From the NCBI GenBank assembly GCA_947627055.1, contig CANQUS010000003.1, positions 62,001 to 126,000 on the forward strand: a stretch of DNA of 64,000 nucleotides, written 5' to 3'. This document shows positions 8,220-37,720 of the stretch, one piece after another. The position numbers and the translations under genes were made by a program. Positions within the stretch are counted from its first letter, which is position 1. Each line of letters begins with the position of its first letter. The notes beneath the pieces were generated by a model. The model was not told the DNA's origin, ran no database searches, and saw nothing but the letters and a program-made list of their open reading frames with translations. Origin of the DNA: an uncultured Clostridia bacterium (GTDB lineage Bacteria; Bacillota; Clostridia; Oscillospirales; Acutalibacteraceae).

Positions 8220-8305
8220 TATAACTCAGGCAATATGTCCCCGCCTCTCATGCGGCTTACGCTGCGCCTGCGGTGTTGAATGAAGGGTCAAGCAAATTAT
8301 TGAAT
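8220..8305. repeat. copy A of a two-copy intergenic structured element
   Basis: tataactcaggcaatatgtccccgcctctcatgcgg...ttgaatgaagggtcaagcaaattattgaat; ungapped block alignment to 37647-37720 (29/36 and 24/30 identical by eye). Confidence 0.65.
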
Positions 8306-13043: not shown

Positions 13044-13054
13044 ATTAACTAAAC

Positions 13055-13325
13055 GCAATGACGAAGAGAGTAGTCATATTTTTATTGCACTCAAAGAGAG
13101 AAACCGCCGTCGGCTGTAAGCGGTTTTGTGTGCCGTATGTGATGAAGTTCACTTCCGAGCGGCTTCGCTGAAATATCCGTATAGAGATTCAGTAGGTGTT
13201 GACGGTAAGTCCCGTTACAGGCTTAACAAGTGTTTGCTTTTGGCAAAAATAAGGGTGGTACCGCGGAAGTTTTCATGTACGCTTTCGTCCCTGATTTAAA
13301 CAAATTGGGGCGAAAGCGTTTTATT
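13055..13325 (+). promoter_or_regulatory. T-box leader (tRNA-Phe responsive) of pheS-pheT
   Basis: AGTAGGTGTTGACGG region, AGGGTGGTACCGCGG T-box sequence, terminator cgctttcgtccc...ggggcgaaagcgtttt; candidate specifier codon TTC at 13148-13150 in GATGAAGTTCACTTCC. Confidence 0.95.
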
Positions 13326-37646: not shown

Positions 37647-37720
37647 TATAGCTTAGGCAAGATGTCCCAGCCTCTTAGGCTGAAGCCACGTTGAATGATG
37701 TGGCAAGCCCTTTATTGAAT
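37647..37720. repeat. copy B of the two-copy intergenic structured element
   Basis: tatagcttaggcaagatgtcccagcctcttaggctg...ttgaatgatgtggcaagccctttattgaat; matches 8220-8305. Confidence 0.65.

Follow-up and report, generated by a model that had tools for sequence, protein, structure and literature searches.

A small repeat with a covarying cloverleaf-like fold, probably mobile as DNA, beside TATAA in uncultured gut Clostridia

Two window copies and the family to which they belong

The 64,000-nt stretch of DNA analyzed here (the window), from an uncultured Clostridia bacterium, carries two similar intergenic segments, copies A and B, that raise the question of whether they represent a structured RNA or a dispersed repeat and, if the latter, how such a repeat spreads. 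The sequences quoted for them in the original prediction are found at 8220–8305 and 37647–37720, their two shared blocks align without gaps, and both copies stand in the same orientation between minus-strand genes. The match between A and B is far above chance expectation. A BLAST search of the window's genome with copy B yields four strong additional copies (87%, 82%, and 81% identity over almost all of the query and 91% over part of it), and covariance model (CM) R1, which was built without either window copy, recovers both A and B (Table 1).

Table 1. Positions of copies A and B, their targets, and their terminal units in the window
Feature	Start	End	Strand	Basis
Copy A target TATAA (host DNA)	8220	8224	+	5-mer conserved to the left of all copies; gene disruptions
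Copy A, 80-nt deletion derivative	8225	8304	+	CM R1, 30.8 bits, E 7e-5; alignment with full copies
Copy A terminal unit, 24 nt, TGAAGGGTCAAGCAAATTATTGAA	8281	8304	+	Homologous to the solo unit of genomes G060 and G061
Copy B target TATAG, diverged from TATAA	37647	37651	+	Position matches TATAA of other copies
Copy B, 68-nt deletion derivative	37652	37719	+	CM R1, 42.5 bits, E 2e-7
Copy B terminal unit, 24 nt, TGATGTGGCAAGCCCTTTATTGAA	37696	37719	+	Homologous to the solo unit of genomes G060 and G061

Alignment with full copies identifies both A and B as old deletion derivatives of a repeat family, which probably have no function of their own. Copy A lacks hairpin II and joins the 5' arm of hairpin I directly to hairpin III; copy B retains little of hairpins II and III or of the neighboring 3' arm of the closing stem P1. 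The C-G to A-T difference between their hairpins, which had been taken for a compensatory pair, therefore compares unlike arms: in copy A a deletion has brought the 5' arm of hairpin I next to ATGCGG, which forms the 3' arm there but in the full element (..CACGCGGCTTACGCTGCG..) belongs to hairpin III as its 5' arm, whereas the 3' arm of copy B is a genuine arm of hairpin I. Given that the arms are not homologous, this pair provides no evidence of covariation. A same-genus genome (G001) has the orthologous nadD-yqeK region and lacks the element of copy B, the intergenic DNA at this site being too diverged to reveal a border. Apart from a T-box leader at 13049–13295 on the plus strand (RF00230, 113 bits), nothing in the window reaches the gathering score of an Rfam family.

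The proposal of a dispersed small repeat family is borne out by approximately 30 copies in the window's 2.0-Mb genome in a CM search (E ≤ 1e-3, with at most 150 candidates per genome scored). Likewise, an 18-mer from the left end (AACTTAGGCAAGATGTCC), allowing up to three mismatches, has 20 matches in this genome versus none for the reversed control. Two same-genus genomes searched by CM contain no copies. The richest carriers are two related MAGs, G060 (BRZ_QS bin46) with 86 copies and G061 (B33_L2 bin.181) with at least 129, and an order-wide search identified 20 carriers among 394 genomes, distributed patchily over seven families; all carriers are drafts or MAGs in which genes were called only as open frames. 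A left-end scan of 84,980 species genomes, which favors intact left ends, found at least 117 loci, those listed all lying in MAGs of uncultured gut Clostridia. Phage and plasmid records contain no match, viral contigs contain just short left-end matches with the remainder of the element missing, no Rfam 15 family matches the element above its gathering score, and its motifs were not found in the text of the papers searched; the family is apparently undescribed so far. The copies of one genome (G402) are near-identical, which points to recent movement. A longer autonomous version was sought between the ends and found at none of 186 left ends; four of these have a right end 0.26–4 kb away, none seen bounding a transposase. 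The element occupies intergenic space, stop codons, and gene interiors and coincides with MAG contig ends, and its borders, target, and fold, described below, are now defined at base level for a high-copy and probably mobile repeat across several families of gut Clostridia.

A covarying cloverleaf-like fold

The full element is approximately 138 nt long and begins with CTTAGGCAAG; the G060 consensus, TATAA followed by CTTAGGCAAGATGTCCCCCGCCTCTAAGGCGGCGGGTTCCATATTCAGTTTCAGTTGGGGTTCAATCCCCAACTGAAACTGAATCGCAGCTTCGCTGCGGCTTGCCACGTTGAATGACGGGGCAAGCCCCTTATTGAA, has 138 nt after TATAA. Its predicted fold is cloverleaf-like, with stem P1 (GGCAAG paired with CTTGCC) enclosing hairpins I, II, and III, followed by a terminal hairpin (GTTGAATGACGGGGC..GCCCCTTATTGAA) and the right end ..TTATTGAA. 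The ends are the parts that change least, namely TATAAC, ATGTCCCCCGCCTCT, and the terminal hairpin GTTGAATGACGGGGC..GCCCCTTATTGAA. Stem sequences differ between lineages with pairing kept: P1 occurs as GGCAAG/CTTGCC, ACGACTG/CAGTCGT, GGACAAGA/TCTTGTCC, and ACGTCGA/TCGACGT, and hairpin III as CGCAGC/GCTGCG, GTGCGGC/GCCGCAC, AGTTGGC/GCCAACT, and others. Pairing is also kept across lineages in hairpin I and the terminal hairpin, which are subterminal at the two ends.

Two-sided changes in paired cells number 62 versus 28.5 (sd 4.2) in shuffles, and 81 versus 28.1 (sd 4.2) among distant relatives in an alignment that was fitted to the model and is biased in its favor. The proposed structure pairs 81–85% of cells, compared with 34–57% for slid structures, and the covariation of P1, II, and III exceeds that of every shuffle. 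Real covariation is present in the family at large. We considered an alternative hairpin IV, in which CTTGCC would pair with a 3' GGCAAG; this was not retained, since distant relatives show covariation of P1, whereas the 3' CAAG is no more than the variable loop of the terminal hairpin. In one genome (G062; loci L154, L075, L141, and L151) the loop of hairpin I contains an additional hairpin (CCTATCCTTTCGGATAG), and the right end has the sequence TTATTTGAA.

Borders, target, and orientation

The borders are best seen where copies interrupt genes. Locus L077 contains an aldo-keto reductase gene that is cut in two by the element, with PF00248 matched at 9–79 by one half and at 90–289 by the other; removal of CTTAGG..TTGAA with one TATAA kept restores the frame (..WPSEYGNAYNAIDQMLDRLG..), and removal of TATAA as well breaks it. 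Copies in genes for an AEC transporter (L081), a B12-binding-like protein (L112), and a multicopper oxidase (L085) behave in the same way with weaker Pfam support. Given that these genes are restored with a single TATAA, we conclude that TATAA is host DNA. Among 100 copies we detected neither target duplications nor terminal inverted repeats. The target is conserved only on the left side of the element, and the free first position is T in 93% of full copies. Several other copies directly follow a stop codon formed by the TAA of TATAA. Self-comparison of the loci yielded no informative empty sites.

The terminal 24 nt (TGACGGGGCAAGCCCCTTATTGAA) also occur as a solo unit, in a set that was not chosen by its left flank and whose count is free of the bias of the left-end scan: 20 of 21 follow TATAA and one follows TACAA. 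The unit is found in tandem after TTATTGAA in seven cases, and two copies terminate exactly at the internal GTTGAA. Thus, TATAA and TTGAA behave as equivalent junction points.

Copies tend to be co-directional with local GC skew, our proxy for replication direction (39/54 in G060, 29/43 in G061, 17/26 in the window's genome, and 10/16 in G062); the total for the four genomes is 95 of 139, versus 53% of intergenic TATAA sites (p 3e-4). Target sites at stop codons may contribute part of this bias.

Mode of spread and comparison with known systems

We consider it probable that the family is a non-autonomous mobile DNA repeat that inserts directly 3' of TATAA without target duplication, and the best-supported analogy for its mechanism is with IS200/IS605-derived palindrome-associated elements (PATEs) and REPs. 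Transposition of the IS200/IS605 type is marked by the lack of inverted ends and duplications, a fixed left target, hairpins near both ends, and a lagging-strand bias, and REPs have several of these marks in common (PMC7290912, PMC6006769). Like PATEs and other ends-only IS200/IS605 derivatives, the element has no inverted ends or target duplication, a fixed pentanucleotide 5' of the insertion, subterminal hairpins at both ends, and a gene-free interior; its moderate orientation bias, measured by the GC-skew proxy, may correspond to the lagging-strand bias of PATEs. From this likeness we infer a single-strand intermediate and cutting at TATAA and TTGAA: the folded single strand would be accessible chiefly on the lagging-strand template; cuts directly 3' of TATAA and of TTGAA would free it, and it would be joined to the 3' side of a different TATAA. 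The internal TTGAA is a possible second cut site, which would explain why the 24-nt unit occurs solo in some places and in tandem in others and is missing from some forms. Unlike PATEs, however, the element could be linked neither to a cognate Y1 transposase nor to a parent IS sharing its ends, many carriers are without Y1, the body of the element is occupied by a covarying four-way junction, and its 24-nt end unit also occurs solo. IS200/IS605 ends require just one hairpin each, whereas an entire four-way junction is conserved here, which counts against an IS200/IS605-like model.

The element resembles REP/REPIN-RAYT systems in its short hairpin unit, fixed 5' tag, high copy number, intergenic location, and solo and tandem forms. 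REP tags are GTAG or CGTC (PMC3733652, PMC6006769); by contrast, the tag of the element is TATAA/TTGAA, its full length is approximately 138 nt, and the window's genome is without RAYT. Neither a GTAG-type tag at the hairpin foot nor a RAYT gene flanked by REPs was found. BOX, ERIC, and RUP elements are modular, hairpin-rich, high-copy repeats of 100–200 nt whose mobilizer is often not known. The element is similarly small, modular, hairpin-rich, and high-copy; it is set apart by its base-exact target and borders and by the absence of ERIC- or RUP-like inverted ends.

The likeness to IS200/IS605 elements breaks down at the mobilizing enzyme. A search of the window's genome for Y1 transposase (PF01797), TnpB, and reverse transcriptase detected none, and PF01797 is also absent from eight other carriers, including the many-copy genomes G223, G226, and G328. 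PF01797 is present in 13 of 22 carriers and 8 of 20 comparison genomes, with no clear enrichment in carriers. The genome G402 has near-identical copies, yet its Y1 is only a 33-aa fragment; the one R1 match among the Y1 loci checked lies beside this fragment. Possible explanations are that the enzyme has been lost, is missing from the assemblies, has diverged strongly, or belongs to a different class. The last of these, in which DNA is mobilized by a non-Y1 enzyme (for example, a different HUH nuclease, or a site-specific recombinase that acts on the folded strand), seems unlikely to us. It is favored by the carriers without recognizable Y1, TnpB, or reverse transcriptase, among them ones with many or near-identical copies, and by a conserved four-way junction that is unusual among IS200/IS605 ends; against this, no candidate gene was found, and Y1 could have been lost after a burst, be absent from a draft, or be too diverged for PF01797. 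Also unlikely, though slightly less so, is a transposition system of a hitherto undescribed kind, in which a protein-free DNA cloverleaf would be cut at TATAA and TTGAA, its 24-nt tail would be mobile separately, and the enzyme would be neither Y1 nor TnpB-coupled nor a reverse transcriptase. Genomes that carry near-identical copies without the expected enzymes make the mover of orphan REP-like repeats a testable question.

Of the original prediction of a dispersed structured RNA or repeat, the repeat family and its covarying fold stand; the RNA is not supported, given the gene interruptions, the lack of strand-specific constraint, and the lack of an Rfam match, and an RNA gene or riboswitch was rejected on the same grounds. 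The borders, target, and orientation of the copies match those of transposable DNA. A multi-copy family of structured RNAs, acting as cis-regulatory elements or sRNAs, would fit the covarying secondary structure and the placement of copies in tandem gene pairs, where 41 are sense versus 17 antisense and many lie just 5' of a start codon. However, copies interrupt genes, the neighboring genes have no common theme, solo and tandem units have exact borders, and the two same-genus genomes have no copy at all. Moreover, losses of stem pairs among copies within a genome comprise 71 G-T and 63 A-C changes, and the two strands fold with equal strength without an excess of G-U. This equality suggests that the fold is selected in DNA during transposition, not afterwards in RNA, and we regard the RNA reading as improbable.

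An ordinary MITE mobilized by a DDE transposase is more improbable still: the element is small, high-copy, intergenic, and non-coding, and two inverted-repeat MITE-like families are present in G061, but 100 copies without terminal inverted repeats or target duplication, a target conserved on a single side, and reconstructed empty-site frames with one TATAA speak against it. RNA-mediated spread, as a SINE-like retroelement or a TnpB-using omega-RNA mini-element, can be dismissed almost entirely, for despite the conserved multi-branch fold and a short motif adjoining the left end, as beside TnpB elements, reverse transcriptase (PF00078) is present in 4 of 22 carriers and missing in 18, including the window's genome, TnpB (PF07282) exceeds the cut-off in 2 of 44 genomes, solo units begin at one fixed base, with no variable 5' truncation, and the fold has no G-U bias. 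An integron attC site was also rejected, as GTTRRRY occurs inside the element but no matching core is present at the opposite end.

Several other loci were noted. In G060, an IS605-type IS with TnpA and TnpB (L158:1483–2000) has a left hairpin, GTCCCCTACCTCTAAGGTGGGGGA, with weak similarity to hairpin I (nhmmer E 0.0066), and ends otherwise unlike those of the element; a distant origin of the family from it is possible. RAYT-like Y1 proteins are encoded in G088 (L296:1417–1932, 171 aa) and G357 (L301:1399–1935, 178 aa), with no element nearby save one 2.4 kb away in G088. The G088 gene is flanked by genes resembling type I restriction genes, and its frame and a neighboring frame share GEIVGATL[RC]GRP, a pattern suggestive of REP-like palindromes inserted into coding sequence. 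Lastly, the two G061 families comprise repeats of approximately 180 bp with long inverted ends (TTAAGGCAATACCGCACA..TGTGCGGTATTGCCTTAA; L120:6323–6500, L104:7633–7811, L094:7220–7397, and L136:7362–7539), which have no Rfam match and in contrast to the TATAA element are ordinary and MITE-like, and a second inverted-repeat, MITE-like family (TAGAGCGTGTTCACAT..ATGTGAACACGCTCTA; L048:4852–5017, L098:1352–1517, and L124:3230–3396) with 89–94% identity among its copies.
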